This document shows, piece after piece, positions 963-44,871 of a stretch of 46,631 nucleotides of DNA. The position numbers were made by a program, and so were the translations under genes. Each line of letters opens with the position of its first letter. Position 1 is the first letter of the stretch. Source of the DNA: a virus. Location: positions 1 to 46,631 of the IMG/VR virus record IMGVR_UViG_3300041964_000077. One strand, given 5' to 3'. Below the pieces are notes generated by a model that was given only the letters and a program-made list of their open reading frames with translations, was not told the origin of the DNA and did no database searches.

Positions 963-1787
963 TTACTTTTGACTAGGTGACCGGAGTCTCCGGTCACCTA
1001 GGATTTGCTCCAATTCCTTGACTCTTGCTTCAGCAGCGATCGCTCTCTCCTTCCACCGCTTCAGCGCATTAGTCGTTTTTTTGTGCCCATAATCTTCGGG
1101 ATAGCGCCGAGCCATCTCCTGTACCGCAGCTTCGATGTGTGGTGTTTTTGGTCGATCATTGCCTGATTCATCACAAGCGATCGCCCAACACTCTTTAACT
1201 CGTTCGATGCCTTTGGGATTCGGCTTGACTCCATATTCATCAGTGTTTTGTTTTCCTCTGAAGACTTTGTGTGAACTACCTTCTGTTTTTGGGGCTTGGT
1301 GACTACCCACTGGGACAAATGCTCTAAACCTTTGCAGTGGCTTGAGCTGGTGGATTGAGTAACTACCTGGTGGCAGTTCTAACACTCGTTCTATCCTTGC
1401 TGCTGCCACTTCCTTTCGATAAAGTTCAGCAGCAGTTTTATCGAAGTACTTAACTAGAAACTGTTGGAACGATGGCAGATTAATATCAGGGTGCTTGTGT
1501 GCCTCAGTGTCATGCAGCCTCATCAGAATTTTGCGCTCTATTGTCCATAATCGGACTCGTTCGGCTTGGCAATCTTTCAGTGCAGAAATGCAGTTGCGAA
1601 TTTCACCTTGTTTGAGCTGTTCGGGACTGTCTCCGTGCCAAGGATGTCCTACTCTTTCAGGGCTTAGGCGAAGGAATTGAGTTCGCACTTCACCCAACTC
1701 TTCTAGTGGCGCAGTGGCAGCTTCGGCTAGATTGTTGGTTTTGACAACTCGAACAGCGGGGGGTGCTGGGAGCGCGCGAGTTACCAT
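963..1787 (-). CDS. Hypothetical protein downstream of sigma factor
   Basis: A 274-residue basic protein with no family I can name. The ATG at 1787 (MVTRALP) is chosen because it overlaps the stop of the sigma C-terminal ORF (ATGGTAA) and has AAGGAG upstream. The last third is charged and helical (ALKRWKERAIAAEARVKELE), a short coiled coil. The final residues are encoded by palindromic repeat copy 1, so the C-terminus may have been created by insertion of the repeat. Tight coupling to the sigma gene suggests a related regulatory role, but this is inference. Confidence 0.6.
   Translation of the reverse strand: MVTRALPAPPAVRVVKTNNLAEAATAPLEELGEVRTQFLRLSPERVGHPWHGDSPEQLKQGEIRNCISALKDCQAERVRLWTIERKILMRLHDTEAHKHPDINLPSFQQFLVKYFDKTAAELYRKEVAAARIERVLELPPGSYSIHQLKPLQRFRAFVPVGSHQAPKTEGSSHKVFRGKQNTDEYGVKPNPKGIERVKECWAIACDESGNDRPKTPHIEAAVQEMARRYPEDYGHKKTTNALKRWKERAIAAEARVKELEQILGDRRLRSPSQK
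973..1001. repeat. Palindromic repeat, copy 1 (longest)
   Basis: A perfect 29-bp palindrome centred on T987, with core GACCGGAGTCTCCGGTC extended on both sides by CTAGGT/ACCTAG. It is one of nine related copies in the window and the longest. It lies inside the reading frame of the minus gene 963-1787, encoding most of its last dozen residues. Confidence 0.9.
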
Positions 1788-2311
1788 TCCAATACTCCTT
1801 CTAATCCTTGCAAGTGAAAAGCAAGATTGCACAGCGCTCTATTTTGAGTTTGCTGCACTCCTTGTGTACTTATTTTCAGTTTTTTAGCTATTTGACTCAG
1901 GCTCATGGCATTGCCACAAAAACCGAATCGCATCAAAACAACCTCCTGCTGTTTTGGACTCAGTTGAGCGATCGCATCTTTTAGTTTTTTCAGTGCCAAA
2001 GACTTGTCGATTTCCGCTTCGGCATTTTCACTTCCCGGTTCTGTTAACCAGTCGATAAACTCTACATTTCTTTGATTGCCTTCACTAATAATTCTGTTGA
2101 GCGATTGTGCTTTCCTGGTGACACTTTTTATCCAGCGGATTTGTTCGACAGACTTTGCTAATAATTCTTCCCTGCGCTCATCAGTAGTGTCTATTTTTCG
2201 GTACTCAATAGCCCATGTTTTTATGCTGCTTTCTCTGATGTTTGGCTCAAAGTCCAAGAGGTAGTCTGCAACTTGCCATATGGGTCGGGGGCATTCCTTG
2301 GTGTCGGGCAA
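1781..2311 (-). CDS. Sigma-70 factor, C-terminal piece (regions 3-4)
   Basis: The frame contains the sigma-70 region 4 signature: [20 protein letters not shown] followed by the helix-turn-helix [20 protein letters not shown], which would read the -35 element. It overlaps the ORF at 2247-2795 by 65 bases and carries exactly the half that ORF lacks. A tract of five C (minus strand; plus 2287-2291) lies in the overlap. Shortening it by one base joins both into one sigma factor of normal order, reading [13 protein letters not shown] across the junction. So this is probably not a separate gene, and its apparent TTG start is an artefact. Confidence 0.8.
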
Positions 2312-2795
2312 TTACTCTCTCGACTTTGCCAAGTTGCGTTACTGTATCGTGGATGTGATTTGGCTTTCGCACCAAATCTTTTTGGTTGTCAATGGCGCGT
2401 GTAATCGACTGCCGAATCCACCAAGTTGCGTAAGTTGAGAACTTATAGCCTTTCGTCGGGTCAAACTTCTCGGCAGCACGTTGGCAGCCTTGGCTTCCTT
2501 CTTGAATGAGGTCTAGTAAGGGTAGTCCGCGTTTCTGGTACTTGGTGGCAATACTCACCACTAGCCGGAGGTTGGATTCAACTAGCTTCTGCTTGGCTTT
2601 AAGAGAGCCGAGAGCGACTTGGTGAGCTAGCTCTAATTCCTGCTCTGGCTTTAGGAGCGGAATCCTGCCAATATCCCGTAGGTAGCGAGTTACAGGGTCG
2701 GTGTCTAGCTTTCGGGAACCTTCAACCCGTCCGTTATAGGCTTTTGGCTCGGGAATAGTAACACGGACTTTTGTGGCAGGCGTAAGATTACTCAT
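2247..2795 (-). CDS. Sigma-70 factor, N-terminal piece (regions 1.2-2)
   Basis: It carries regions 1.2 and 2 of a group 2-type sigma factor: [16 protein letters not shown], then [26 protein letters not shown] and the region 2.4 motif [19 protein letters not shown] that recognises the -10 element. The start is ATG 2795 (MSNLTPA), with GGGGAG upstream and an ATGA overlap with gene 2792-2980; longer versions read through that gene. The frame ends prematurely after region 2 and continues in 1781-2311. A phage sigma factor would redirect host RNA polymerase to phage or stress promoters. Confidence 0.85.
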
Positions 2796-2980
2796 GCCTG
2801 CTCCCCCGCTGCGATTTTTTCTCCGTTGTTTAGTGCCAAGTAAGCTTTTTTCCTTAGCTCTGGTGTGACCTGCCCTTCCTGGAGGATGTGAATAAGAACC
2901 ATTCGCAATCCACCTGCCTCTCTTTGGGACTGATCGAGCTGATACCTCAACCGGAACTCTATGTCTTCTCGTTGTGTCAT
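2792..2980 (-). CDS. Small protein upstream of sigma factor
   Basis: A 62-residue, mostly helical charged protein ([17 protein letters not shown]...). Its TGA overlaps the ATG of the sigma factor (ATGA), so the two are translationally coupled. That position could suit a sigma-factor modulator, but no anti-sigma motif is visible. First clear gene of the leftmost minus operon. Confidence 0.55.
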
Positions 2981-3004
2981 ACTGGTGTGTCCTAAGATAC
3001 AAAA

Positions 3005-3169
3005 CTACCCCCAGGCGTGGGGGTTTTTCTTTGATCTACGCGACGGATTGAGCCGTCTTGATTTTGGCTTGTGCGACAGCCATTGCCTCTTGCCGTGATA
3101 CTCTTGCTTCATCAGTTCGACCCTTGGAACGAGGGCGACTGGGATTCGCATGACCTTGGTTCTTTCCAT
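3005..3169 (-). CDS. Possible small DNA-binding protein
   Basis: A 54-residue ORF too short for routine calling. Its start, [20 protein letters not shown], resembles the beta-strand plus helix opening of small cyanobacterial ribbon-helix-helix-like proteins. The rest is very basic, and its last residues read through the terminator hairpin. It lies next to a cluster of GTAAC/GTTAC sites that could be its operator. There is no clear ribosome binding site, and a second frame here (ending ...[10 protein letters not shown]) also looks protein-like, so this may be a broken gene. Confidence 0.3.
3007..3028 (+). terminator. Hairpin terminator
   Basis: ACCCCC (3007-3012) and GGGGGT (3019-3024) form a 6-bp stem with a 6-base loop, followed on the plus strand by TTTTTCTTT. 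On the minus strand the stem is followed by AGTTTTG, so it may work both ways. It separates the sigma operon from whatever lies at 3.03-3.24 kb. Confidence 0.5.
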
Positions 3170-3297: not shown

Positions 3298-3438
3298 TTG
3301 ATTTTTGGAGATGAATACAAACACAGATTGAAAGAGTACTGCCAGCGTCGAGTTAGGGAAGAAGGTTCGATTAGAGCGTGGACTTGCCGAATTGGGGTAG
3401 ATAAACCACAGCAAAGCCTTGGCTGGAAGGAACCTTAA
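3298..3438 (+). CDS. Hypothetical protein, N-terminal piece
   Basis: A 46-residue ORF starting at TTG 3298 with a strong GGGAGGGG ribosome binding site. It begins (L)IFGDEYKHRLKEYCQRRVR and is plainly coding. It stops at 3438, but the frame used by the next ORF (3471-3719) is open and protein-like from about 3423 (LEGTLTEPIRLHTLLCLAW). Adding one G to the GG at 3421-3422 joins them into one protein of about 141 residues. Unknown function. Confidence 0.5.
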   Translation: MIFGDEYKHRLKEYCQRRVREEGSIRAWTCRIGVDKPQQSLGWKEP

Positions 3439-3470
3439 CAGAACCAATTCGGCTGCATACTTTACTTTGT

Positions 3471-3719
3471 TTGGCATGGGATAGAAACGAAACGCCAGAA
3501 CAGACACGAGACTGGCTTGAAGGGAAACCTAGCCTTGTAGACCAAATAAGAGAACTTCCGCATCATATCCAGGCGAGTCTACTAGCCGAGCTAATGCGCC
3601 AACAAGTTGCGCTGCTCAAGCCAGCCGTGAAAGACGGGGGAATCCCCCTAGTGCGAATCGCGCCCCGCAATCCTGTACCCTTCCTTTTGATAGGGAAGTG
3701 GTGGGAGATTGTGAGATGA
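3471..3719 (+). CDS. Hypothetical protein, C-terminal piece
   Basis: An 82-residue reading (AWDRNETPEQTRDWLEGKPS...) with no ribosome binding site at its TTG start and open sequence upstream. It is best read as the continuation of 3298-3438 after a one-base frame break. The middle is helical (IRELPHHIQASLLAELMRQQ). I do not recognise the family. Confidence 0.55.
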   Translation: MAWDRNETPEQTRDWLEGKPSLVDQIRELPHHIQASLLAELMRQQVALLKPAVKDGGIPLVRIAPRNPVPFLLIGKWWEIVR

Positions 3720-3738
3720 GTGATACACGGGGATTTGA

Positions 3739-3858
3739 ATGATAGAAGTCGGCTCTCCACGGCATTTGAAGCTGAAGGCGATCTCTGGTCGCCACATTGC
3801 GTATAAAAAATCTTCCCCTAGAGAACCTAGAGGAAGAAGACTTAGAAGCGATCGCTGA
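3739..3858 (+). CDS. N-terminal piece of the 3797-4120 gene
   Basis: A 39-residue ORF from ATG 3739 (MIEVGSPRHLKLKAISGRHI). It overlaps the TTG-initiated ORF at 3797 in another frame. Removing one A from the run of six at 3805-3810 links the two as RHIAYKNLPLENLEEEDLEA, giving a start codon to a gene that otherwise has only a poor TTG without a binding site. Confidence 0.4.
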   Translation: MIEVGSPRHLKLKAISGRHIAYKKSSPREPRGRRLRSDR

Positions 3859-4120
3859 TGCAATGGGTTATAACCGAAGTGAACCGTTGAGGTTTAACGC
3901 TGGGCTTGAAATGCTGGAAAGCTTTTTGAAGACTGACGAAGGCACATTAGACGCTGTCGGGGATTATCACTTGGTTTATTTGGCAAACTTTTGTCACAAA
4001 CTAACCAAGTATTACGAGTTTCCAGCATTCCATGCAGTATGTGACGAAATCCTGACTTATGAAGGTGATGTTGAACAACTGTTGAGTGATATTACCCGCA
4101 ACGGCGCGCTGATTGGTTAA
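3797..4120 (+). CDS. Hypothetical acidic protein
   Basis: A 107-residue acidic, helical protein (LPLENLEEEDLEAIADAMGY ... LLSDITRNGALIG). The TTG start at 3797 lacks a ribosome binding site; the true N-terminus is probably ATG 3739 across a one-base break. The 3' end overlaps the convergent minus gene 4117-4395 by four bases. A HIP1 octamer lies in the coding sequence near 3848. Family not recognised. Confidence 0.6.
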   Translation: MRIKNLPLENLEEEDLEAIADAMGYNRSEPLRFNAGLEMLESFLKTDEGTLDAVGDYHLVYLANFCHKLTKYYEFPAFHAVCDEILTYEGDVEQLLSDITRNGALIG

Positions 4121-4435: not shown

Positions 4436-4453
4436 CGACCGGAGTCTCCGTCG
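4436..4453. repeat. Palindromic repeat, copy 2 (one base lost)
   Basis: CGACCGGAGTCTCCGTCG matches the repeat family core but lacks one G in the right arm, so the palindrome is imperfect. It is intergenic, upstream of gene 4117-4395 and just before a terminator hairpin. Confidence 0.8.
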
Positions 4454-7420: not shown

Positions 7421-7633
7421 ATGGCGATGATCAATAAAGTCAAGGAATTTGCAACAAAGCAGGGAATAAAGACAGCTTACGAGTTTGCTCAAAAAACTGA
7501 AGTTCCAGAGTCTACGGCTCACAGATTATTCAGAAATCGAAACAACTACCCGTCAAAGCAAATACAAGAACTTATCTGTAAAAAATTCAGGGTTCAACCT
7601 GGTGAGTTTTTGGGATGGGAAGAAAATGATTAA
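7421..7633 (+). CDS. Cro/CI-type HTH repressor
   Basis: A 70-residue protein that is essentially one XRE-family helix-turn-helix: VKEFATKQGIKTAYEFAQKT with recognition helix TEVPESTAHRLFRNRN, then the usual LCKKFRVQPGEFLGWE-type ending (here LICKKFRVQPGEFLGWEEND). It is the first gene rightward of the symmetric operator, so it most likely binds that site and represses one or both promoters. No cleavable C-terminal domain is present, so induction would need an antirepressor or turnover. Confidence 0.8.
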   Translation: MAMINKVKEFATKQGIKTAYEFAQKTEVPESTAHRLFRNRNNYPSKQIQELICKKFRVQPGEFLGWEEND

Positions 7634-7701: not shown

Positions 7702-8493
7702 ATGATTGAAAACATGACAATTAAGACAGCTAGTTGCAGAAAACTTGGCTTTGCTTCTGATGGTATTTTTGACACTCACACTAACAAGCTCGTTGTGTCT
7801 GTACAAAACGACGGATATTGGAATGCAGCTCAAATGTGTCAGCTTTACGAAAAACCTTTTGCCACATTTTTTCTGCGTCAGCGGACACAAGGTTTAATTT
7901 CAGCGCTAGAGACACAAAAGAGTCAACTTGCAATAGAACTACCTTCAACAGGAATTCCCGAATCTTATGTTTATTTCCTGTTAGACATTGAAGCCATGGT
8001 AGTTAAAGTGGGCTATTCCAGCCAGATAGACGAGCGACTAAAACAGATTCGGAGCCATACTATTTCTCCGTTGGTACTAGTTAAAATTATCCCCGGAGGT
8101 TTCAAAGAGGAGCAATTAATTCATCAACGATTTTCTCATTTACGGGTACATCACGAATGGTTCCGTTTTAACAAAGAATTAAATGTTTTTGTGGATGAAT
8201 GTGCAAGCGAACCACCTATATGGATTCATGGTTGCATAGCAGCTAACTTGGCTGGCTGGCTTGATACCGAATTTCAAGTTTTAGTCTATGACTACATTTT
8301 TGGTTACAGGGTTCAGCTGAGAAAGCGGCAAGAAACTCTTGAGGTATTTACCATCCAAAACGCCACGCTAGAACACCAATACAACCAAGCACTCTACCGC
8401 ATGGATTCGGCTGGACTACTACAACCGATGACCGATGACGATGAGTCATACCTGTGCGACTGGGAAGCTGATGTAAACGGAGAAGAGGAATAA
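7702..8493 (+). CDS. KilA-N protein with inserted T5orf172 domain
   Basis: A 263-residue protein from ATG 7702 (GGAG ten bases upstream; an in-frame start at 7666 lacks one). The first half of a KilA-N DNA-binding domain is at residues 34-72 (NDGYWNAAQMCQLYEKPFAT). A T5orf172 GIY-YIG-type domain follows at about 88-166: YVYFLLDIEAMVVKVGYSS, then EERLI-like EEQLIHQRF and HHEWFRF. The second KilA-N half, IWIHGCIAANLAGWLDTEFQ, is at 173-200, then an acidic tail. The nuclease-like domain thus sits inside the DNA-binding domain. Likely a phage regulator or antirepressor-type protein. Confidence 0.75.
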   Translation: MIENMTIKTASCRKLGFASDGIFDTHTNKLVVSVQNDGYWNAAQMCQLYEKPFATFFLRQRTQGLISALETQKSQLAIELPSTGIPESYVYFLLDIEAMVVKVGYSSQIDERLKQIRSHTISPLVLVKIIPGGFKEEQLIHQRFSHLRVHHEWFRFNKELNVFVDECASEPPIWIHGCIAANLAGWLDTEFQVLVYDYIFGYRVQLRKRQETLEVFTIQNATLEHQYNQALYRMDSAGLLQPMTDDDESYLCDWEADVNGEEE

Positions 8494-8497
8494 ACAA

Positions 8498-8785
8498 ATG
8501 ACCCTAAAACCCCACGAACTAAAACTAGCGGCAAAGCTTCTGGAGCTAGCCGCCGATCAATTCGCTAACCACGGCTGCAATGACTTCGACTTAGTGCAAG
8601 AGGCTGGGCTAACACTAGAACAAGCCTACGAGCTTAACCAAGCATATGCACAATGGAACGGTGACGCAGAGGAGTGGACTGAAGGCGAGTTGCGATACCC
8701 AGGAGCTTTGGGAGACAGTAGTTTGATGCGCTGGCTATCGACAAGGATGCAGCAGGAACTAGAAGAAGGCGATCGCAATGCCTAA
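8498..8785 (+). CDS. Hypothetical protein, 95 aa
   Basis: A helical acidic protein (MTLKPHELKLAAKLLELAAD...). GAGG precedes the ATG, and its end overlaps the next gene by eight bases. It opens a chain of nine overlapping small genes running to 10.6 kb. A HIP1 octamer forms part of its 3' end. Family not recognised. Confidence 0.6.
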   Translation: MTLKPHELKLAAKLLELAADQFANHGCNDFDLVQEAGLTLEQAYELNQAYAQWNGDAEEWTEGELRYPGALGDSSLMRWLSTRMQQELEEGDRNA

Positions 8786-8972
8786 AACCATCCGAGCCAT
8801 AGCCGCTGTTGCTGTGTTTACCGCATTCATTCCGTTCATCGTGGCGACCGCATTGGTCAGATCCATCAGAGGATGCAACGAACTTGATGAAATCGAAGGA
8901 GCGTCAACAGTATCTGAGATAGCCCATTCTGTGTACGCAGCACTAGACGAGGAGAGCGATCGCCATGATTGA
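8778..8972 (+). CDS. Small membrane protein
   Basis: A 64-residue protein with one clear membrane segment near the N-terminus (IRAIAAVAVFTAFIPFIVAT, residues 5-24) and a short acidic soluble tail. It overlaps both neighbours by eight bases. Unknown function; the topology suggests an inner-membrane phage accessory protein. Confidence 0.55.
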   Translation: MPKTIRAIAAVAVFTAFIPFIVATALVRSIRGCNELDEIEGASTVSEIAHSVYAALDEESDRHD

Positions 8973-9300
8973 AAACTACCAGCAATACCAAGTAACACAA
9001 CAGCAGCTTGCCAAGTTCGAGAAAAGCCTTGAAGCCGCCGAAAGACACACCCCCGACATTCACCCCCTTTTGTGGAAAGCAGAGCTTGACGGGTTGCGGA
9101 GTATTCGCGATGACCTAAAAGCGCAGGTAGAGGAGTACAAAGCTAAGTACAAGCAGCAAGTCTGTGACGCCTATACCCTGCTAGCAGGCTCCTTTGTCGA
9201 GGGGCATCTAGCAGGGTTGAAGCTACTGGAGCAAGTCGAGAGGGAGTGCCCGGAAGCATTGAGAGAGGTGGATGAGGAGATAGAGGAGAGTGTGAAATGA
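8965..9300 (+). CDS. HigA-like N-terminal domain protein, no HTH
   Basis: A 111-residue protein whose opening MIENYQQYQVTQQQLAKFEK and the later HPLLWKAELDGLRSIRDDL and LKAQVEEYKA closely follow the conserved N-terminal region of a HigA/XRE antitoxin-like family (MIxNxxQYxxTxxQxxxFE...HPxLxxAExDxLxSxxxDLxxxxxEY). The helix-turn-helix that normally comes next is missing and is replaced by a helical acidic tail. It may therefore be an interaction module only. Starts inside the end of the membrane-protein gene. Confidence 0.55.
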   Translation: MIENYQQYQVTQQQLAKFEKSLEAAERHTPDIHPLLWKAELDGLRSIRDDLKAQVEEYKAKYKQQVCDAYTLLAGSFVEGHLAGLKLLEQVERECPEALREVDEEIEESVK

Positions 9301-9934: not shown

Positions 9935-10155
9935 CACCCGAAGAACTCAAAGCTCACCTAGGCGAATTACTTGAACAGTCCCGCGACTTGGAAATCAAGC
10001 TCAAAGTAGCCTACCGATTGATTGATGACTGCGTACCAAAATCTCAACGAGTGGTGGGTGATGGTATCCGAGCATTGGAAGGAATAGACAAAGTGCAATG
10101 TGCCTTGATTCGGTCTAGATCTGCGATTCAAGTAGAGGAAGCAAGCAATGATTAA
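9931..10155 (+). CDS. Hypothetical coiled-coil protein
   Basis: A 74-residue helical protein (MTPEELKAHLGELLEQSRDL...). The start at ATG 9931 overlaps the previous stop (ATGA) and is preferred over an in-frame start at 9853 that would lie deep in the previous gene. No family recognised. Confidence 0.55.
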   Translation: MTPEELKAHLGELLEQSRDLEIKLKVAYRLIDDCVPKSQRVVGDGIRALEGIDKVQCALIRSRSAIQVEEASND

Positions 10156-10396
10156 AACTTGGTGGATTAACAATAGTTGGCGACTCTGGGCACTTCGCTG
10201 GGTGCTAGCAACTGACCCTTACTCTGCCGTGGAAGTATGGCAAGAATATCGCTATATGCTCAATCCGAGTGATGAGCGAAGCCTAGTCGATCAGATTATC
10301 GAAGACTACGACAGGGACATAGACGCAGCCTTGCAGAACCCATTCGTAGCAATAGCTTGGGGATTGCGTGGCTTAGTGAGGAGGATAGAGGGATGA
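10148..10396 (+). CDS. Hypothetical Trp-rich protein
   Basis: An 82-residue protein opening MIKTWWINNSWRLWALRWVL, rich in aromatic residues near the N-terminus, followed by an acidic helix. Overlaps its neighbours. Could be weakly membrane-associated; unknown. Confidence 0.5.
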   Translation: MIKTWWINNSWRLWALRWVLATDPYSAVEVWQEYRYMLNPSDERSLVDQIIEDYDRDIDAALQNPFVAIAWGLRGLVRRIEG

Positions 10397-10578
10397 GAAT
10401 CATCATCACCAACCACTTTGTCTGCAAAGACTACGCCTTCGACGTGGCACACTTCCATGGCGACTGGCTCGTTACCAAAGGTGGTAGTCGGTTCTATGCA
10501 GACCAGTGGCGAGTAGCAGTGGAAGGGAAAGAGGCGGTTAAGGTAAACCCTGATTTAGTGGAGGTCGCAGCAAAGTGA
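10393..10578 (+). CDS. Hypothetical small protein
   Basis: A 61-residue beta-rich protein from ATG 10393 (MRIIITNHFVCKDYAFDVAH...), coupled by ATGA to the gene before and overlapped by the GTG of the PP-loop enzyme. Unknown. Confidence 0.55.
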   Translation: MRIIITNHFVCKDYAFDVAHFHGDWLVTKGGSRFYADQWRVAVEGKEAVKVNPDLVEVAAK

Positions 10579-11579
10579 ATCAGCAGCTTTCTTTATTTGG
10601 CGAACCCGAACCGGTTGCACAAACTCGTAAGCAGATAATTTCCAGTATTGTCGAATACCTCCAGGATAGACCCGCCCCCGATTCGTTATCGCCCATCGTC
10701 GTCAGTTATGGCGGTGGCGTGGACAGTACGGCAATGCTGATTGCCATGTACCTCAAGGGCGTCAAGCCGGATTTGATTGTCTTCTCTGATACAGGCGACG
10801 AAAAGAGGGAGACTTATGCCTATATCAAACTGTTCAGTCGATGGCTGAAGTCCGTTGGCTTTCCGCCAATCACTCGCACTCGTTACCGGATGGAAGATGC
10901 GGGGGAGAGGAAAAAGTTTTTAGCCTATTACTCTCCTCATAGATGGAAGTCTTTGTCGTTGGCGGCATTAGAAGCTTGGGCAGTCGCTTATCAAAATGTG
11001 CGGCAATCTGTGAAGTACAACACGCTAATGGAAGAATGCATTATTCTAGGCAAGCTTCCGGGCAAAGCATACGGAAGTGGGCAATGCTCAATGAAGTGGA
11101 AAATAGAGCCAACTCGCAAGCTTGTGAAGAAATGGCTTAAAGACAAGAATGTTGAAGTACGATGCTTTGTCGGTATTAACGCAGGGGAGCAAGAGCGATT
11201 ACTTGACAAAAAAGGAAATCTCAAGCCCCTGACTGAGGTTGACTACGGGATTAGTTTTCGGCTTGAATATCCCATGATTGAGTGGGGGCTGGACAAGGAA
11301 AACGAAAAGGCTTTGATTGCTAGAATGGGCTTACCAATCCCTCCTAAGTCATCCTGCAAGCGATGCCCCAATATGACTCCTGAAGAAATATTGGCGCTGC
11401 CCAATGAAGATTACGAAATGGCTTGTTTTATTGAGGCGAATGCAGAACCATACTCAGGCAGCATCAAGGGGCTGGGTAGAAGTAAATTCAGTTGGCGATC
11501 TCTTAAAACCGCAACCCCACTCGAATTACTGGCATGGCAAAACCGACAGGAGTCTCGGAAGTGTGGGTGCGTGGACTGA
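10575..11579 (+). CDS. PP-loop ATPase, PAPS-reductase-like
   Basis: A 334-residue enzyme of the adenine-nucleotide alpha-hydrolase superfamily. The PP-loop SYGGGVDST is at residues 44-52, with IVFSDTGDEKRETY shortly after. Two Cys pairs lie near the C-terminus (SSCKRCPN and KCGCVD), which could bind an Fe-S cluster or zinc. Related phage and DndC-like proteins activate sulfur or nucleotides, so a role in DNA or tRNA modification or sulfur transfer is possible, but the substrate cannot be read here. GTG start inside the preceding gene; TGA stop lies inside palindromic repeat copy 3. Confidence 0.75.
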   Translation: MNQQLSLFGEPEPVAQTRKQIISSIVEYLQDRPAPDSLSPIVVSYGGGVDSTAMLIAMYLKGVKPDLIVFSDTGDEKRETYAYIKLFSRWLKSVGFPPITRTRYRMEDAGERKKFLAYYSPHRWKSLSLAALEAWAVAYQNVRQSVKYNTLMEECIILGKLPGKAYGSGQCSMKWKIEPTRKLVKKWLKDKNVEVRCFVGINAGEQERLLDKKGNLKPLTEVDYGISFRLEYPMIEWGLDKENEKALIARMGLPIPPKSSCKRCPNMTPEEILALPNEDYEMACFIEANAEPYSGSIKGLGRSKFSWRSLKTATPLELLAWQNRQESRKCGCVD

Positions 11580-11595
11580 CCGGAGTCTCCGGTCA
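11577..11595. repeat. Palindromic repeat, copy 3
   Basis: TGACCGGAGTCTCCGGTCA, a perfect 19-bp palindrome. Its first three bases are the stop codon of the PP-loop gene. Confidence 0.9.
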
Positions 11596-11602
11596 CCTGC
11601 AC

Positions 11603-11641
11603 AAAATAAAACCCCGCACATATCTGAATAGTGCAGGGGTT
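11603..11641 (-). terminator. Terminator of the 11.7-12.3 kb minus genes
   Basis: On the minus strand AACCCCTGCAC pairs with GTGCGGGGTT (one bulged base) and is followed by TTATTTTG. It lies directly downstream of gene 11721-11981 and separates it from the convergent PP-loop gene. Confidence 0.65.
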
Positions 11642-11720
11642 GGTCAGGGTGCATCTATAGAACTATTGTCGCGAATTTTGGCGAGTGCGATCGCCAGTCA
11701 TTCATCAAGTGGTTGGCTTT

Positions 11721-18119: not shown

Positions 18120-18133
18120 AAGGAGCAACAATT

Positions 18134-29800: not shown

Positions 29801-31000
29801 ATTGAACGTCTTTGCAGTACTGCCACTAGCTTTGTTTGCCGCTTCTTCTAGTCGCTTAAATTGCTTAATATTTTTCTCGATAGCTGAGTCTAAATTATTA
29901 GATCCTTGGAATGACTGATAAGTGTCGCTAAGTACTTTTAGTGCTATCGATAGAGCTGTTGTCTGAATCGAAAACTTTAGGAATGCCCCCGCCGCCACAC
30001 CAAACCCCGCCGCCAACGCAGGCATCGCCGCTTTGGCAAGTGTCATCACCAATCCAAGGACAGCCGGGAGTTGACGTATGGCTAGCGCACCTAAGACCAA
30101 AGCTATCTTGTCGGCGTTATCAATAGTTAGTTGTAGTAAAGTATTCAGCCCTCTTAGCCCTGTGTTAATCAAGGGCATCAGAGCGCCGCCCAATATTCTT
30201 TGCAATTGAATATTGAGATTAGCTAATCTATTCTCTAAACCTTGGGTAGAACCCGCCGCATCCTCGACGCCGCCCGAAAACTCTGTTTTTAACTGGCGTG
30301 AAAACTTAAGGACTGAATCAGCGCCGCCGTATTGTCCTGTTCTAAGGTTCTTTCTAAAGTCTTCAGGGGTTTCATTTAATGCTCTGGCAAAAATGTTCTG
30401 AGCGCCTGGGAATGCCTCACCGATTTGGAGGTTTACTTCTTCACTTGACAGTACTGGTTTTCCTGCTGCTTGGACAACTCCATACATAAAGCGCTTGCGT
30501 TGTTCTGGTGTTAGCTGTCTAACTAATGCCGCCTCATTTAGTGCCGAAAAAATCTCTTGGGCATTGCTTTCAATCTTGGTTCCTTTTAATGCCCCTGCTA
30601 GTTGGTTGAATGACTCAGTTGCCGTCTGTATGGGAGCATTGAGCCTATCGACTTCTTGACGAACAAACTCTAAGTTTTTGACCCCTTCAGCCGTTGAATT
30701 AGCGGTGAAAACAATTGAGCGCTCTAAGCTGTCAAAAGCTTTAGTTGTTTCGTAAATCTGAGGAGCAAGTCTCGCTAAAACTGGGATAGCGTTAAGGGCT
30801 AAAAAAGCTACCGTAGCACCTTTGATGTTTCTAAGTAATAATCCGAAAGCTGGTTCTGATTGCTTCAGGTTGCCGATAAATTGGCTGAAGTTTAAACCTT
30901 GACCAAAACCTTTGCCGAACTCAGATAGGGTCTTACCCATTGTCTTGAGGGGATTCTCAAGTTTTAGGACACCTACCAAACCACTCCTGACAGCCTGCAA
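26810..31000 (-). CDS. Tail tape measure with cell-wall hydrolase domains
   Basis: A 1396-residue frame. The N-terminal part has the tape-measure N-terminal domain (IFSALNEAALVRQLTPEQRK, PVLSSEEVNLQIGEAFPGAQ, roughly residues 100-190), then a hydrophobic region and long coiled coils. Near the C-terminus are two hydrolase-like domains: an M23-peptidase-like one (WDFDYYVPKKGRGLYD, GYGNYAVIYDSKGNL, KTGHGDN) and a lytic-transglycosylase-like one (GLDPIEFASLMSWESGGTLN with catalytic-type Glu). The TTG start at 31000 is arbitrary; coding continues upstream. Confidence 0.8.
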   Translation of the reverse strand: MQAVRSGLVGVLKLENPLKTMGKTLSEFGKGFGQGLNFSQFIGNLKQSEPAFGLLLRNIKGATVAFLALNAIPVLARLAPQIYETTKAFDSLERSIVFTANSTAEGVKNLEFVRQEVDRLNAPIQTATESFNQLAGALKGTKIESNAQEIFSALNEAALVRQLTPEQRKRFMYGVVQAAGKPVLSSEEVNLQIGEAFPGAQNIFARALNETPEDFRKNLRTGQYGGADSVLKFSRQLKTEFSGGVEDAAGSTQGLENRLANLNIQLQRILGGALMPLINTGLRGLNTLLQLTIDNADKIALVLGALAIRQLPAVLGLVMTLAKAAMPALAAGFGVAAGAFLKFSIQTTALSIALKVLSDTYQSFQGSNNLDSAIEKNIKQFKRLEEAANKASGSTAKTFNNLDKKLNRDRSQTTFMERFSRNFNPIERISGTYNQFQSGIRTKSRQDDIREFNKRVDITLNNSQVKPEDAERARELSKKLADPFISSAEKETDVNGMPSIKKQKEAIDVRVRNQKEMVEGLLEAANAELEAIDELWARSDITREQADLLKEAARRSIPKLEAEKKQLENFADGQVSLIKVMREQLTKVTGAYTDANTAIATNTSIYQGRIAKAQVGGILSPGLTPGQAQYAQQMLQQRSLEAQIQGGQGALGQLNKYVYTPDNKQILFNQGIDPATVGVEELKRLSDLSNKPEEKLLYERLTKIREIEGTVAQQEAQLAQSQAEVAIQLYELGKSVDEYLRGITRQTAELELTVEASQASFALAAEKNRLVSKLQGFQANFFSGFVDSLISGLDSINAAQQAETQRKQALLQNQFQAEDTIRAGNELMRTLPDGLPSDLVPQSIPAIPVKLDVDALQASAGIQDLKGAIAEAVGISRDLNTAMVIVNQSLNQTKNAGASVSAEFTGINAQLQGWNKFLADIGFTWNYVQKEFQLGTKENLELQQRWNNLLSIPGILMQRLAGIVGVALLKSFNPVLAAVAELLARLGLFPDSVEKIRSKVLSLGFDFKGVTETVTGLGQSIVDSIGNAIDTVKQKIQELKDGGAAEAAQEGIATSFALVGGTGGSAGASGSGAFASGLYTGPAANIGGSADYHIDSKIAKSIGRDMAIQLIDQMAAAYNAQGREMLFSNAAVAGKTWRTDASREEKFALLEQIDAAHSHSPNPTLWDFDYYVPKKGRGLYDKSTEGAEFLLPSVAGGRVEYASGGGYGNYAVIYDSKGNLVMKTGHGDNRKNLPANRTLASVTASTNLNVGSGSKGQFQLPSVGGVGRIPRGGTIGSAERVQSDPAGAVALVKAAQRLGLDPIEFASLMSWESGGTLNPNVFGGDDNAYKGIIQFSPDNQRTYGTSGQQSIAQQIPAVERYLKDRGFQPGKHDIRHAYSAVLAGQASERYWECFRF

Positions 31001-31098
31001 TGGGTCGGTGGCTACACTCTTAGCATTCTGAAAAACACTTGCTCCAAAGCCAGAAATGTTATTTCCTATCGTGGAAAACAGATTGCCGAGAGATGAGG

Positions 31099-31116
31099 CG
31101 ACCGGAACTCCGGTCG
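31099..31116. repeat. Palindromic repeat, copy 7 (in frame)
   Basis: CGACCGGAACTCCGGTCG: 8-bp arms around AC. It lies inside the coding sequence that links the two large tape-measure frames and is translated in frame as part of QPTGVPVAS. Confidence 0.85.
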
Positions 31117-31187
31117 GTTGGGAAGGTTGCCGATTGAATAGTGAAGATATTGCATTGCCAGCGGTTGAACTGGCTGATTGAACTTTA

Positions 31188-34148: not shown

Positions 34149-34651
34149 CCCCTGAATACAGACGAGATTGCACCACTTGCCGCCTTAAATGGAGCGACGA
34201 TGATTGAGGTGATAGAGGAGAATACTGCTTTAATTGGCGCAAGTAAAACACTTTTGAGTGTGTCGCCTCGATTTACGCTTTTAAATCCTTCAACTACACC
34301 AACTCGAACGGCTTTGGCTATATCTCGTGATGTTTCAGATATATTAGTTTGCTCAAGTTTTATCGAGATTTTCTCTGTTTTCTTAAGGTCATTTATTAAT
34401 TTTTGGGTGGTTTTTAACTCAGTGGCGTCTACCCAAACCTTTAAAGGATTGCGCTTGAAATATGTGTTAGCTTGTGCTACGTGTTCAAGTTTTTTGTTTA
34501 TGTGGCGATTAAGGGCAGTAAGTTGAGTATGGTCAACGGTTGGAACTATATGTAACTTCGGGACTTTGACAGACTGAATCTGCTGTAATCCAGCGTATAA
34601 GCCTGATAAGTCCAGCCCTGTGCCAATGCCGATGCTAGCAACGTAATCCAC
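34133..34651 (-). CDS. Tape measure, extreme N-terminal piece
   Basis: A 172-residue frame with GTG start at 34651 and GAGGTG upstream (DYVASIGIGTGLDLSGLYAG). A beta-rich domain is followed by helices (AASGAISSVFRG). The opening resembles the N-terminus of many long cyanophage tape measures. With one G added it reads ISSVFRGVFEGIGQRLSATF straight into the next frame. This is the likely true start of the tape measure. Confidence 0.6.
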   Translation of the reverse strand: MDYVASIGIGTGLDLSGLYAGLQQIQSVKVPKLHIVPTVDHTQLTALNRHINKKLEHVAQANTYFKRNPLKVWVDATELKTTQKLINDLKKTEKISIKLEQTNISETSRDIAKAVRVGVVEGFKSVNRGDTLKSVLLAPIKAVFSSITSIIVAPFKAASGAISSVFRGCSRE

Positions 34652-35429: not shown

Positions 35430-36027
35430 CGTTCAGGCTATTTTGGATATCGTCAGAGGGTTCAGATACTGCACTGAGCATTGCAATTTCTTTTTCAGGT
35501 TCGATAGATGCGATCGCTTCAGTTACAGTAGCTTGAGCCTTCTGGATTTCTTGCCTAATTGTCAGCGACAGCTTGGCACAAAATGAGATTCGTTGCAGTC
35601 CAATTCGTTTGTTAATTTCGTGATTATCGCTAATAGTTTTTTGTAATTTCTCTTTGAATTCAGCTAACTTTTCTTCTATGAGGTCAATAATTACATGAGG
35701 TTCAGTTTCAATATGTGCGCTGATGTAATCGAGATTTGCGTTAAGCATATCCTTGTCTTGGCGAAGTCCTACCAATGCCGCCTGCTGATAGGTTTCTTCG
35801 GTGACAGCTTCGCCTGCTTCTTGGCGCTGTTGAACTTTGATAATAGGCTCAAAGAATCTTTGCAACATTGCATTCGACCGAGCCAGTAATTTGTGAGAAG
35901 TATCACTCAAAGCCGAAGTATCGTAAATATCAAACTCTTTCTTGCCAATAGAAAAGCTAGCGATTGGCTCTTGAAGTCGTGAGCAAATCTCGAAAAGTTC
36001 GTCACCGTTTAATATTTTCTTAGTCAT
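35389..36027 (-). CDS. Tail assembly chaperone-like, first frame
   Basis: A 212-residue helical acidic protein from ATG 36027 with AGG eight bases upstream. It follows the tail tube gene, precedes the tape measure and overlaps 34662-35429 by 41 bases: the position of the first tail-assembly chaperone in siphophages. Sequence conservation in this role is low, so the call rests on position and overlap. Confidence 0.6.
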   Translation of the reverse strand: MTKKILNGDELFEICSRLQEPIASFSIGKKEFDIYDTSALSDTSHKLLARSNAMLQRFFEPIIKVQQRQEAGEAVTEETYQQAALVGLRQDKDMLNANLDYISAHIETEPHVIIDLIEEKLAEFKEKLQKTISDNHEINKRIGLQRISFCAKLSLTIRQEIQKAQATVTEAIASIEPEKEIAMLSAVSEPSDDIQNSLNGASRKKDKVAQTA

Positions 36028-36463
36028 TGTCAACACCTACTCCGAATAGAGTGTAATCGCCTCGAATCACTTTAGGTAGTGCCAACTCAGGTGGCGGCGG
36101 GAATGCGTCAATCACCAAGCCAGTTGAGGTTTGCTCGGTATTTGAGAAAGTAAAGTTTGCATCCTGAGTACGCAAAGCTGCATAGGGAGAGTACCACCAC
36201 AAATCAGGATTTCTAGATGGCCCTTCGCAAGATGCTGCCTTTAACAAAATCGGGAACTTGTCAACAGGGCAACCTGCTCTATCGTAGAAACCCAGTGCCT
36301 TACGACTGCGGTCTTCCTCGTCATAAATCATTGATGCGCCATGATAAGCAAGCTCAAAGATTTCTAGCGCATCCCCACCCCACACTCTGGCTAGACTGAA
36401 AGCCATACTCCAGGTATATCCCGACACGATCTGATCGGCGGGTGCAGTGCTAGCCTGCGTCAT
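36020..36463 (-). CDS. Major tail (tube) protein
   Basis: A 147-residue protein of tail-tube size: SGYTWSMAFSLARVWGGDAL, then KFPILLKAASCEGPSRNPDL, WWYSPYAALRTQDANFTFSN and TGLVIDAFPPPPELALPK. Mixed beta composition and the place before the chaperones fit the major tail protein that polymerises around the tape measure. ATG overlaps the stop of the gene before (ATGA). Confidence 0.6.
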   Translation of the reverse strand: MTQASTAPADQIVSGYTWSMAFSLARVWGGDALEIFELAYHGASMIYDEEDRSRKALGFYDRAGCPVDKFPILLKAASCEGPSRNPDLWWYSPYAALRTQDANFTFSNTEQTSTGLVIDAFPPPPELALPKVIRGDYTLFGVGVDND

Positions 36464-36594
36464 TGCTCGGTGAAAGTCTCAGTGTCGGTGATAGTCGCTG
36501 TACCCATCTGGTCATCTGGCGTCAAGACTATTTCGCCCTCGCTGCCAAATTTTAGATAAATGTAGACAGGCCCAGTAAATAAATTTCGCGGCAT
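36460..36594 (-). CDS. Small tail-region protein, 44 aa
   Basis: A 44-residue beta-rich ORF (MPRNLFTGPVYIYLKFGSEG...TATITDTETFTEQ), with GGAGGGG upstream and ATGA overlap with the tail tube gene. Too short for routine calling but strongly supported by its spacing. It may be part of the tail tube or a neck protein. Confidence 0.55.
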   Translation of the reverse strand: MPRNLFTGPVYIYLKFGSEGEIVLTPDDQMGTATITDTETFTEQ

Positions 36595-36597
36595 TAG

Positions 36598-37026
36598 TTA
36601 TCCCCTCCGTTGTGTAAAAAACTCAAACACACAAGCCCCCACATATAACGAGGGAATCCCAATAAATCTGACTGGCAACCATTGCCGACGCTGTACATGG
36701 TCTAGCCTTTGCCCTTCCATCTGGACACAACAGCACCGACGCTTCACTATCTCGTCCACCCATTCCATCAACTGCCCTGCGATTGGTTCGCTCTGGTGGT
36801 AAGCCGTGAATTGCAATGCGGGGGAAGAGGCGCGATTCGTCGTTAGTTGCCGAGCAATAGTGCGATTGTCAACTTCGCTAATCACAATTCGTCCACCTGA
36901 GAGCAAAATATCTTCCAATGTGGTTGGGTGAGCGTTCGTCAACTCGACAGCTTCAGGCAAATGCTCACGCACACAAGCCCACAGTGCAAACTTCAGCTCA
37001 ACAGTAGATGGGGGGATAGCAAGCAT
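36598..37026 (-). CDS. Tail terminator or minor tail protein
   Basis: A 142-residue protein (MLAIPPSTVELKFALWACVR ... VYVGACVFEFFTQRRG-like end). By order (after the gp10-like protein, before the tube) it matches the tail-terminator or tail-completion slot. GGAGG precedes the ATG. Family not certain. Confidence 0.5.
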   Translation of the reverse strand: MLAIPPSTVELKFALWACVREHLPEAVELTNAHPTTLEDILLSGGRIVISEVDNRTIARQLTTNRASSPALQFTAYHQSEPIAGQLMEWVDEIVKRRCCCVQMEGQRLDHVQRRQWLPVRFIGIPSLYVGACVFEFFTQRRG

Positions 37027-37409
37027 TTAACGCCTCCCATTCCTACCGACCGGAACTCCGGTCGTTTTGCTTTCAAGCTGGCAATAATTTCTTGACCAAT
37101 CGCAGGCAGGTTAGAGCGAATGTAGGGATTCTTGATTTCTACCCAGTAGGCGTAATCCACATCCCGCCTGATTTCCTGTTCTCTGGTTTCCCCATACAAG
37201 GAAATACCACCCGCTACGATGTCACACTCAATCAGCTTGTCTGACACTATCGGATCGGTTGCTCTGGTACTGTTATAAAGTCGCTTGGTGTCAATCGGAG
37301 TCAGGCTTTGAACAAACGGCACAGTATCACTAACGGCTTCACCAAATTGCTTGGCTAACCCTGCAACAAAACTATTTAGTGCTTGCTGATTGATGATGGT
37401 TTTAGCCAT
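36993..37409 (-). CDS. HK97 gp10-like tail-component protein
   Basis: A 138-residue protein from ATG 37409 (MAKTIINQQALNSFVAGLAK). It carries the family pattern SLTPIDTKRLYNSTRATDP, GGISLYGETREQEIRRDVDY and YWVEIKNPYIRSNLPAIGQE. Such proteins sit at the head-tail junction or act as tail-completion factors. The last residues (KRPEFRSVG) are encoded by repeat copy 8, which may have altered the C-terminus. Confidence 0.6.
   Translation of the reverse strand: MAKTIINQQALNSFVAGLAKQFGEAVSDTVPFVQSLTPIDTKRLYNSTRATDPIVSDKLIECDIVAGGISLYGETREQEIRRDVDYAYWVEIKNPYIRSNLPAIGQEIIASLKAKRPEFRSVGMGGVKCLLSPHLLLS
37047..37064. repeat. Palindromic repeat, copy 8 (in frame)
   Basis: CGACCGGAACTCCGGTCG, identical to copy 7. 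It is read in frame near the 3' end of gene 36993-37409. Confidence 0.9.
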
Positions 37410-37761
37410 AAGAACGCACCTCCAGCACATAGGCTTTGAGCAATCCCGCCGCAACATCAGCGCCTAGTGCCATAAACTCAACCACTGGGCTAAATGTCGT
37501 AGAAGGCAAAGCACCAAAGACCCTAGCTTCCCCCGGTGCTATTACATAATCTGGGTCTTCAATATCTAGGTAGGATGCTGCTTTTTCTGGAGTAACGATG
37601 TGGATGCCAGCACCTCCAGCAGGCACGGCAGCGTTGTAATGCTCAACTACTAAGACAGTGGATGCCGTGTTTTTAAACGTGTACTTTTCCCCTAGCGTCA
37701 AGGTGACAGGGTTTAGCTTGCTACCTTGTTGCTTGCTAATCGTTGTCGCGATTTCTGTCAT
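37402..37761 (-). CDS. Small head-to-tail region protein
   Basis: A 119-residue beta-rich protein from ATG 37761 (TEIATTISKQQGSKLNPVTL, YTFKNTASTVLVVEHYNAAV). GGAG is well placed. Position suggests a head-completion or decoration role. Family not recognised. Confidence 0.5.
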   Translation of the reverse strand: MTEIATTISKQQGSKLNPVTLTLGEKYTFKNTASTVLVVEHYNAAVPAGGAGIHIVTPEKAASYLDIEDPDYVIAPGEARVFGALPSTTFSPVVEFMALGADVAAGLLKAYVLEVRSYG

Positions 37762-42596: not shown

Positions 42597-42741
42597 GCTT
42601 GAGTAACGGGCGATCGCGTGTCCACAACCAAAGCGGGATAGCCGTAATTCTAATCTCTATCCACTTGCCACCCACTAACCGACGATACCAGCGAAAACCA
42701 GAGAAGAATATGTCTAGCCACTCCTGAATTGTTCCTTTCAA
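42553..42741 (-). CDS. Small aromatic-rich protein
   Basis: A 62-residue protein (GTIQEWLDIFFSGFRWYRRL, ITAIPLWLWTRDRPLL). TTG start overlaps the HTH gene's stop (TTGA). Aromatic and partly hydrophobic; possibly membrane-associated. Unknown. Confidence 0.5.
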   Translation of the reverse strand: MKGTIQEWLDIFFSGFRWYRRLVGGKWIEIRITAIPLWLWTRDRPLLKHETEVASEEYDESN

Positions 42742-43001
42742 CGTGGCTTCCTTTGCAACAATTCCTTGACCGAGCTAACTGACAGCCCCTCGCTCTCCAA
42801 TATCAGCAACTCAGCCGCCGTTAACCTACGCTGCCCTAGGAGCAATCGACTCAACCGCCGATGGCTAATTGGCAACCCTCTGTGCCTAAATACCGCCAAT
42901 ACCTGCTTGTTGTCCCAGTTGCGTCGAGACTTCAAAACACGGAACTCCTCACATATCGCAGTATTTATTCTTTCTTCCTCGGTGGTGAGTAAAAGCGCCA
43001 T
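42738..43001 (-). CDS. HTH regulator
   Basis: An 87-residue protein with a helix-turn-helix-like centre (NWDNKQVLAVFRHRGLPISH, RRLSRLLLGQRRLTAAELLI). Its ATG lies within the CTATGG sequence (GCCATAG at 42997-43003), so binding there would block its own translation start or promoter. The related copy at 41213-41238 suggests it also controls the capsid or P63C promoter. Confidence 0.6.
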   Translation of the reverse strand: MALLLTTEEERINTAICEEFRVLKSRRNWDNKQVLAVFRHRGLPISHRRLSRLLLGQRRLTAAELLILESEGLSVSSVKELLQRKPR

Positions 43002-43160: not shown

Positions 43161-43448
43161 ATGACTTTACTTACGGGACAAATAATCCATGACGGCATTG
43201 CACTAACAGGAACCCTTGAGCTATCGACAAGAGAGTCTATCACCAAAATAGAAGTCCTTAATGGCTACTTCGAGGAAATAAAGCTACCAGAGTGCCAGTA
43301 CCAGGCGCTGCTGATTTCCGAGAAGCCTGACGGAACCGTACCGGAACTAACGATTGAAGTGCCTGATGTTGAGCGGGTGACGTGGGCAGAGTTGTTCGAG
43401 AAACCCTCTTGCAAACCAGTGCCTGCGATTCGCGTCCAAGCCCCTTGA
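43161..43448 (+). CDS. Virion-associated protein, N-terminal piece
   Basis: A 95-residue beta-rich frame (MTLLTGQIIHDGIALTGTLE, ITKIEVLNGYFEEIKLPECQ). It ends at 43448, but removing one C from CCCC 43441-43444 continues as ALETKLIDKSQIERLRKIPP to 43713. The full protein would be about 183 residues. First gene of the rightward late operon. Confidence 0.55.
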   Translation: MTLLTGQIIHDGIALTGTLELSTRESITKIEVLNGYFEEIKLPECQYQALLISEKPDGTVPELTIEVPDVERVTWAELFEKPSCKPVPAIRVQAP

Positions 43449-43713
43449 AACCAAGCTTATTGACAAGAGCCAGATTGAGCGGCTGAGGAAAATCCCCCCA
43501 CCTGAACTCAACCCAAGGGAAGGGGGCGTCGAAGATCCCGACTATTGGAATAGGGAGGAGTTTGTACTACCTGGATCAGCTGAGGAATCAGAGAACGCGG
43601 TGGCTGAGGAAACAGAGGAGACAGAGGAAGAAGTAGAGGAGGAACCCGTTACACCCAAAATTGACCGACAAACCCGAAATCTACTTGAAATGAACGCGAG
43701 GCTTAGAAAATAA
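43444..43713 (+). CDS. Virion-associated protein, C-terminal piece
   Basis: An open frame without its own start: LETKLIDKSQIERLRKIPPP, then a very acidic tail (VAEETEETEEEVEEEPVTPK) and RNLLEMNARLRK. Stop TAA overlaps the next ATG (TAATG), which supports this frame as the real end. Confidence 0.5.
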   Translation, partial: LETKLIDKSQIERLRKIPPPELNPREGGVEDPDYWNREEFVLPGSAEESENAVAEETEETEEEVEEEPVTPKIDRQTRNLLEMNARLRK

Positions 43714-44846
43714 TGCTGGCATTACCTGGGACAAGATCTGATGCAAGGGTTCCAGCGATTTGCTTTGAGCCTGTATTTAAACCCCACAAGCAAGATTTGT
43801 GCTTTTACAAAGGAGCAGATTTTAATTTTTCACTACTCGTTGCGGACTACCCTATCGACTTTAGGGGTGCGTCTTTTGCAATGGAGATTCGCCCTCCTAA
43901 TGGCGACGTCAGACAGATTAAAAACGTCTTAGGTTCCACTGCTGTTAACACTTCTGTTATCAAGCTTGAGTTTGAGAAGTTGGACTGTAGTGGCGAGTGT
44001 AAAACTGACAGGGATATCAAAAAACTGGAGTCCTTGCCGATTAATGAAGGGGACTTCGTGACGCTCGAAGGTTCGGGAGTGACTATGTTCCCCGTGCTTT
44101 CAGTTACAGCTAGCAGCATCCTTGTCGAAGGCGTGTCTAGTCGTGACGTTGCAAAAGGTCGGGTGTTTTTTCGCTTCAAAAGCGATGCCTCGTTCTTTGT
44201 CAGTCCAGCTTTCACTCCTGAAGTAGTAGCAACGGAAACTCCCGCCGCAATAGGTGCAACTGTCCTATTTACTCAATCACTGCCACGGGAACTGTCTGCG
44301 GGGACAATCTTGGTTTTCGCTGATGCCAATAGCAATACAATACTTGCCACTCTTACAGACAATGCTCCCTTGGGCGGGCGGCTGCTGGCAGTTCAGCCAA
44401 TGGAAAGTCCCATCGAAGCGGGAGCTTTAGCTAACATCGACGCCTTTGCGATTATCCTAACTGCCGAAACATTACAAGGCGGCAACACTCTGACCGTTCC
44501 CGCCATTCCCGCAAGTATCCCGGTAGGCACGCCATTAAACTTCTCTCGTAGGACAGGGGCTGGATGGGAGTTTTTGTCTGGACTTACCGTACAGGACACT
44601 GCACCTGTTGGCAGTACCACTATCACTTTTGATCAGGCTGACGGGGACTTACCTATTGGTGCGATCGCTTACTTTGGCACTGTTCCTTTCAATGCCCTAA
44701 ACATTGGCATTACAGCCGATGACACAAGACAGCTGCACCTAAATGAGTACAAATACGACCTCATTGCACGGCTGGCTGACGGAGAGAAGCTGGCAATCTT
44801 GAAGGGCGCAATCAAATTTGATGGGTATGTGTCGGACTTCATCTAA
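43713..44846 (+). CDS. Tail or baseplate structural protein
   Basis: A 377-residue beta-rich protein, N-terminal domain similar in layout to phage tail/baseplate proteins that begin with a small beta-barrel (FYKGADFNFSLLVADYPIDF, RGASFAMEIRPPNGDV). The centre carries repeated Ala/Thr/Val-rich segments (VATETPAAIGATVLFTQSLP, GNTLTVPAIPASIPVGTPLN), resembling virion Ig-like or coat repeats. It is translationally coupled to the gene before. Confidence 0.6.
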   Translation: MLALPGTRSDARVPAICFEPVFKPHKQDLCFYKGADFNFSLLVADYPIDFRGASFAMEIRPPNGDVRQIKNVLGSTAVNTSVIKLEFEKLDCSGECKTDRDIKKLESLPINEGDFVTLEGSGVTMFPVLSVTASSILVEGVSSRDVAKGRVFFRFKSDASFFVSPAFTPEVVATETPAAIGATVLFTQSLPRELSAGTILVFADANSNTILATLTDNAPLGGRLLAVQPMESPIEAGALANIDAFAIILTAETLQGGNTLTVPAIPASIPVGTPLNFSRRTGAGWEFLSGLTVQDTAPVGSTTITFDQADGDLPIGAIAYFGTVPFNALNIGITADDTRQLHLNEYKYDLIARLADGEKLAILKGAIKFDGYVSDFI

Positions 44847-44853
44847 TCAATTT

Positions 44854-44871
44854 TGACCGGAACCCCGGTCA
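44854..44871. repeat. Palindromic repeat, copy 9
   Basis: TGACCGGAACCCCGGTCA: 7-bp arms around AACC. Intergenic, between the two late virion genes. Confidence 0.85.

Follow-up and report, generated by a model that had tools for sequence, protein, structure and literature searches.

A dispersed palindrome array that differs in sequence between sister cyanophage lineages, and its possible stoperator-like role

The window analysed here is the whole of IMG/VR virus record IMGVR_UViG_3300041964_000077 (46,631 bases), part of the genome of a freshwater cyanophage. A short palindrome with the core arms GACCGGA/TCCGGTC (GACCGGAGTCTCCGGTC) is dispersed along the window in nine copies, and these copies were analysed together with palindromes in related phages. 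The window contains 36 HIP1 octamers (GCGATCGC), which are typical of cyanobacterial DNA. The capsid protein it encodes shares 33% identity with those of the Cylindrospermopsis phages Cr-LKS4 and RM-2018a, and an ATPase shares 37% identity with one from Aphanizomenon phage CL131. Searches of the phages collection returned no megablast match for window positions 1-25000 and no tblastn match for the 986 amino acid tape-measure part of the window. The window is collinear, in reversed orientation, with approximately half of G001, a 107,653-base record with a 107-bp terminal repeat that points to a circular assembly. We refer to the window and its relatives G001, G003, G004, G005, G009, and G010 as lineage A, and to the complete relatives G011 and G012 (~67 kb) as lineage B. 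Genes in IMG/VR records were called with our own codon-usage script and the deposited genes were used for the Nostoc phages A-1 and N-1.

All nine copies listed in the original prediction were found at their positions in the window. Copy 1 (973-1001), which has the core GACCGGA-GTC-TCCGGTC, is indeed extended to a palindrome that is perfect over 29 bp. It lies towards the 3' end of the minus-strand open reading frame (ORF) 963-1787, and its counterpart in G001 (92743) is degenerate (GATCGGA-AC-TCCGGTC). The right arm of copy 2 (4436-4453, site at 4437) is one G short and its counterpart at G001 89447 is intact. Copy 3 (11577-11595) overlaps the TGA stop codon of the plus-strand ORF 10575-11579, with counterparts at G001 80901 and G005 6510. 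Copy 4 (18843-18859) overlaps the stop codon of the minus-strand ORF 18858-19724, and its counterparts (G001 72966 and G005 15063) carry one arm change each. Copy 5 (21960-21976) has one arm mismatch and intact counterparts (G001 66802 and G005 21228). No counterpart was found for copy 6 (23908-23926), which has a GAT centre, or for copy 7 (31099-31116), which has a 2-nt centre and lies between two ORFs of the tape-measure region. A single open tape-measure ORF of 3,073 amino acids spans the copy 7 region in G001, and a weak ORF of 126 bases that spans this copy was also predicted by our gene script. Copy 8 (37047-37064), also with a 2-nt centre, lies near the 3' end of the minus-strand ORF 36993-37409 and has counterparts at G001 52106, G009 13205, and G010 8644. 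Copy 9 (44854-44871, site at 44855) has one arm mismatch, lies 8 bp past the stop codon of ORF 43713-44846, and has counterparts at G001 44716 and G009 20399; the matching gene junction in G011 is occupied by the palindrome of that genome (24504). Six copies have perfect 7-bp arms on both sides (979, 11578, 18843, 23909, 31100, and 37048). The claim that every copy except copy 7 sits at a gene 3' end or between operons needs amendment, as copy 7 in the window is likewise placed after the end of a gene (72 bp beyond the stop codon of ORF 31188-34148), and copies 1 and 8 fall within ORFs, close to the 3' ends of these.

The array is not random. The 17-mer, allowing up to three mismatches, gave 11 strand matches in the window against 0.05 expected (100 shuffles), and the pattern ACCGGA-N0..6-TCCGGT gave 6 matches against 0.01 expected, so nine copies did not arise by chance. 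G001 contains 12 intact and three degenerate copies, each of the latter with one arm change, and the other relatives contain six (G003), two (G005), two (G009), one (G004), and one (G010). G014, an 8.3-kb fragment close to lineage A (TerL 83%), has no copy. Using exact patterns, the 17-mer was found in nine contigs of the viral collection, comprising five relatives (12, 6, 2, 2, and 1 copies) and four single-copy contigs with 60-66% GC. The 16-mer form was found in 47 stretches of the viral collection with one copy each, and no contig outside lineage A matched twice. As the 17-mer and the 16-mer are repeated only in lineage A contigs, the repeated set is characteristic of this lineage of phages. 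Scanning the genome_contigs collection with only the 17-mer form gave 33 single-copy matches, none with a cyanobacterial title and one titled only 'bacterium'. The palindrome was thus not found at comparable density in unrelated host DNA, and a host repeat is not supported by these matches, although the true host may be absent from that collection. We found no such palindrome family in Cr-LKS4 (100,000 of 101,125 bases scanned), in CL131, in the first 50 kb of RM-2018a, PaV-LD, and 2AV2, or in stretches of 9 to 22 kb from each of sixteen more distant capsid relatives (30-40%).

The core of the palindrome is constrained. Seven window copies have G001 counterparts at matching places, and across these sites the arm bases are identical at 91 of 98 positions, compared to 132 of 280 in the ungapped 20-bp flanks. 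The centre varies in both sequence and length (GAC/GTC in 24 sites, AC/GT in 11, and ATC/GAT in one, across seven records). This supports the prediction of selection on the dyad. The G004 palindrome (5112) lies in an interval where G001 has a TnpB-like gene (10079-11686). Two further TnpB-like genes were seen in G001 (7913-9055 and 87182-89017), one of the three being beside a Y1 transposase; this label was assigned by eye, as was the label GH19-like. The degenerate G001 palindrome at 101259 is enclosed by an ORF of 1,135 amino acids (98962-102369) with RNase HII and Dam methylase domains.

Lineage B carries a different palindrome. G011 (67,608 bases) and G012 (67,430 bases) each have a 127-bp terminal repeat and have structural genes in common with lineage A (the capsid is 70% identical). 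Neither contains GACCGG-N2..8-CCGGTC. Both contain an unrelated palindrome, GTCTAATATTAGAC, in approximately 40 copies each, mostly in gene gaps (24 exact, 12 one-mismatch, and four two-mismatch copies in G011; 23, 11, and six in G012). At up to two mismatches, GTCTAATATTAGAC is absent from the window, G001, G003, G005, G009, and Cr-LKS4 and occurs once in CL131. Flanked by A or T on each side, it was found in 82 stretches of the viral collection and was repeated only in the G011 and G012 contigs. The cores are identical between G011 and G012 at 494 of 504 bases, compared to 1,175 of 1,332 in the 20-bp flanks (36 of the 40 G011 sites were aligned, two of them to one G012 place). The sequence of the array therefore differs between sister lineages. 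Only three of 29 orthologous gene ends are used by both lineages, which is no excess (Fisher P = 0.53), and so the arrays seem to have been re-sited rather than mutated in place.

A third palindrome occurs in Nostoc phage A-1, which shares only scattered genes with lineages A and B. We identified 34 copies of AGAGTNACTCT, five of them inside gene bodies. Among 30 copies of TAGAGTNACTCTA, 19 are within 25 bp of a stop codon, 10 are within 25 bp of a start codon, and two are inside gene bodies; TAGAGTNACTCTA has no copy in N-1, the window, G001, G011, or G012. The account given by Chenard et al. 2016 (PMC4916379) counts 43 motifs for A-1 and 21 for N-1, usually in the spaces separating ORFs and with sequences that differ between the phages, calls them asymmetric, and suggests that they might be stoperators. 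We infer that the AGAGTNACTCT/TAGAGTNACTCTA palindrome is the published A-1 motif. Separately, A-1 contains 75 copies of the asymmetric CCCCGGAGTCA and N-1 contains 78 copies of CCCCGGAATCA, which differ by one base between the two phages and are spread over coding and non-coding DNA on both strands.

The palindromes are concentrated close to the ends of genes. Placement was counted for 29 lineage A sites (from the window, G001, G009, G010, and G004) and for G011. In lineage A, a stop codon lies no more than 20 bp away from 13 of the 29 sites, compared to 5% for random places and 20% for random non-coding places. No site comes that close to a start codon (27% of random non-coding places) and six are inside gene bodies (76% of random places). 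The 29 sites include G001 32935 and G001 101259; leaving out 32935 changes the near-stop count to 12 of 28. The same 20-bp limit applied to G011 places 17 of 40 sites near a stop codon (4% of random places and 19% of random non-coding places). Spacing is also more even than that of random gene ends. The coefficient of variation is 0.39 in the window (P = 0.0045) and 0.50 in G001 (P = 0.0025), which was taken as linear in this test. It is 0.57 in G011 and 0.59 in G012, values reached by 0 of 2,000 random sets each, and 0.56 in A-1 (0 of 3,000).

The sites have a half-site structure. In lineage A, information extends four bases outward of each arm: each of the 58 half-sites has C or T adjoining the arm, and A occupies position -3 in 77% and position -4 in 64% (these counts omit G001 32935, G001 101259, and G003 9195). 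In a longer stem the two flanks would be expected to pair, but at positions -1 to -4 they match each other across the dyad no more often than shuffled halves do (P = 0.47, 0.95, 0.62, and 0.70 for 29 sites). This is also the case for A-1 (P = 1.0, 0.86, 1.0, and 0.52) and lineage B (P = 0.21 to 0.44). Among mismatched pairs on the sense strand in lineage B, there are eight G-U pairs and 23 of other kinds, including 14 A-C pairs by hand count, which indicates that G-U is not favoured (24 sites with clear sense and six ambiguous, with orthologous sites counted in both genomes). Copies also lie in frame inside open genes: the tape-measure ORF of G011 holds three, and the G001/G003 ORF 33067-34491 and a G001 ORF of ~1,100 codons hold one each. 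As the half-site flanks are conserved yet unpaired across the dyad, and copies are found inside open genes, the pattern favours DNA sites for a dimeric protein over RNA hairpins. Protein sites were among the three options offered in the original prediction and appear to fit best, with RNA-processing hairpins fitting less well and a small mobile palindrome poorly supported.

Our leading interpretation, in which our confidence stops a little short of even, is that the palindromes form a stoperator-like silencing or organising array of binding sites for a predicted dimeric protein. Each subunit of the docked dimer would read one half-site (AANY-GACCGGA, with the halves 2-3 nt apart). Because the sites recur every few kb, rarely within gene bodies and in many cases right after a stop codon, the bound protein would mark the whole genome. 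The likeliest use would be stoperator-like, with the bound protein stopping transcribing polymerase at many points and thereby silencing or insulating the genome. Joint divergence of site and protein into separate groups would be expected to give the sister lineage a different site sequence. A broader version, which we hold still more tentatively, is that more than one cyanophage lineage covers its genome with palindromic pairs of half-sites that are evenly spaced, lie at gene ends in many cases, and are read by a dimeric protein of the phage itself. This would be a symmetric counterpart of stoperators, with the array swapped to a new sequence upon a change in specificity, defining immunity-like groups.

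A number of observations weigh against an array of dimer-binding sites. Start codon avoidance is not general, as eight of 40 sites in G011 are near a start codon, as are those counted above in A-1. The minimum-gap test is weak in lineage B (P = 0.047 in G011 and P = 0.40 in G012), with two G012 copies only 28 bp apart, and the lack of excess in gene ends used by both lineages also counts here. A centre of either 2 or 3 nt is unusual for a rigid dimer site. No tyrosine integrase, resolvase, or ParB_N match was over the cut-off in the eight records searched. Further contrary observations would instead suit RNA hairpins at mRNA 3' ends, acting after transcription as weak terminators or as processing or stabilising elements, which we consider unlikely overall. 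The prediction that no copy has a T tract is only roughly right, as 12 of 29 lineage A copies have at least five T in the 8 nt beside either arm, compared to 18.8% of random places. Extended palindromes are found at copy 1, G011 60260, and G011 55177, and one G011/G012 site pair (29900/31703) differs by a matched change on both arms. Hairpins are also consistent with the closeness to stop codons and with the folding energy of the 17-nt GACCGGA core (-10.1 kcal/mol; -9.5 kcal/mol for the 16-nt form). The GTCTAATATTAGAC core, however, is not GC-rich and folds at only -2.9 kcal/mol, and the flanks in G011 are not enriched in T (10 of 40, compared to 23% of random places). The GC-rich stem and T tract of an intrinsic terminator do not describe the array, most copies being without a T-rich flank, and no Rfam match at gathering score was found in the window. 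The unfavoured G-U pairs, the conserved but unpaired flanks, and the in-frame copies in open genes argue against hairpins as well.

Genome-organising or partition sites, such as KorB-, Noc-, or ParB-like loading sites or packaging or segregation marks that do not block transcription, are in our estimate about as doubtful as hairpins. KorB operators and Noc binding sites are dispersed short palindromes read by a dimeric protein, and the even genome-wide spacing and the copies within coding sequence are in keeping with such a role. The absence of ParB_N over the cut-off in the eight records sets the present arrays apart from those systems (a single 14-bit match was obtained, in G011 only), although a host-encoded protein is possible. 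That the palindromes are boundary sequences at which modules recombine is less probable again. The identity between G001 and G003 breaks at copy G001 21357, with mismatches beginning 3 bases to its left whereas the 1,500 bases to its right are free of them, and copy 80901 lies within a stretch where G001 and G005 diverge. However, the islands of divergence in both comparisons are mostly away from copies and several copies lie in fully identical stretches, so a recombination hot spot is weak on these identity comparisons. That a transposase has dispersed these sequences as a small mobile or selfish palindrome, similar to REP/RAYT-type elements, seems very improbable. A Y1 (IS200/IS605-type) transposase is encoded in G001 (87182-87520), ~2 kb from copy 89447, and in G005, but these are the only two of the eight records with one; none was found in the window or in G011 and G012, which have the densest arrays. 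Furthermore, orthologous positions and arms are conserved, and the spacing is too even.

Returning to the stoperator-like reading, cluster A mycobacteriophage stoperators are described as more than 20 dispersed sites, many in short intergenic spaces, with a consensus that varies by subcluster; they are 13-mers of asymmetric sequence that a monomer binds and whose orientation follows that of transcription, according to the accounts in PMC9283540 and PMC6550527. The many dispersed sites, most in short intergenic spaces, are also seen in the cyanophages, with fewer per genome in lineage A. Unlike those stoperators, the cyanophage sites are palindromic rather than asymmetric and oriented, which is a further point against the analogy. 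We read the array as one that may work like stoperators yet lies outside that family, because its sites are symmetric. The A-1/N-1 motif arrays, as presented in PMC4916379, are alike in having dozens of dispersed copies, mostly between ORFs, with sequences differing between related phages (~40 copies in lineage B, fewer in lineage A). They differ in motif sequence and in being called asymmetric in that paper. This kind of array was already hinted at in Nostoc phages and the set described here is a variant. SPBRE of Bacillus phage SPbeta, a 15-bp promoter-region motif read by the tyrosine-recombinase-like phage repressor MrpR (as described in PMC10516654), is likewise a short site repeated in the intergenic regions of one phage. 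In contrast, PF00589 had no match in any of the eight records here (E 0.1). With start codons taken as the guide to promoter regions, sites within 20 bp of one number none of 29 in lineage A and eight of 40 in G011. In the open-licence papers searched, we found none of the four exact palindrome strings, no earlier report of a sequence change between sister lineages or of such even spacing, and no system closer than those named above.

The window encodes two small candidate reader proteins, both of which are speculative leads only. A small helix-turn-helix protein (42738-43001, minus strand) is common to both lineages, with identities of 98% in G001, 64% in G009, and 39% in G011. It had no match in Pfam, PHROGs, or NCBIfam. 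Its structural model has a mean pLDDT (predicted local distance difference test) score of 79.4, and the nearest solved folds are XRE-type regulators (best Foldseek E = 0.13). Several structural genes in its vicinity show 71-82% identity across the lineages, but the adjoining gene is 40% identical and the small terminase 33%, and therefore the divergence of the helix-turn-helix protein is not special. Its predicted recognition helix differs between G009 and the window even though they share the palindrome, which also weighs against the leading interpretation. The second candidate is a Cro/C1-type helix-turn-helix protein (7421-7633, plus strand) that matches PF13443 HTH_26 (30.2 bits, cut-off 22) and has no G011 ortholog in the gene comparison listing. 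HTH_3 matches over the cut-off were obtained in G001 and G005. A reader common to A-1 and both lineages was also sought, and the comparison of A-1 with N-1 gave nothing convincing. Elsewhere in these genomes, G001 35566-37647 and G011 16347-18423 appear by eye to encode a receiver-only response regulator and a sensor kinase, with 39-51% identity between lineages.

Among the G001 proteins longer than 150 amino acids, 15 match the window, and five of these align there in two reading frames, including the sigma factor and the tape-measure protein (at 1784-3005, 3405-4117, 24229-34651, 36023-36594, and 43161-43710). The window thus has frameshifts, whether genuine or introduced by sequencing. The G absent from copy 2 may be one such frameshift. 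G013, a 44.6-kb record with many heptamer tandem repeats of the AGGCAGG type, was rejected as a member of lineage A, though TerL and the adjoining gene are common to both.

The best-known case of dispersed sites that silence an entire genome is that of one mycobacteriophage group. The two cyanophage sister lineages, which have the same structural genes and different but similarly organised arrays, provide a natural experiment in which the protein that changed together with the sites should be the reader. If the stoperator-like interpretation is correct, a simple sorting of cyanophages into possible immunity groups, using sequence only, would follow.

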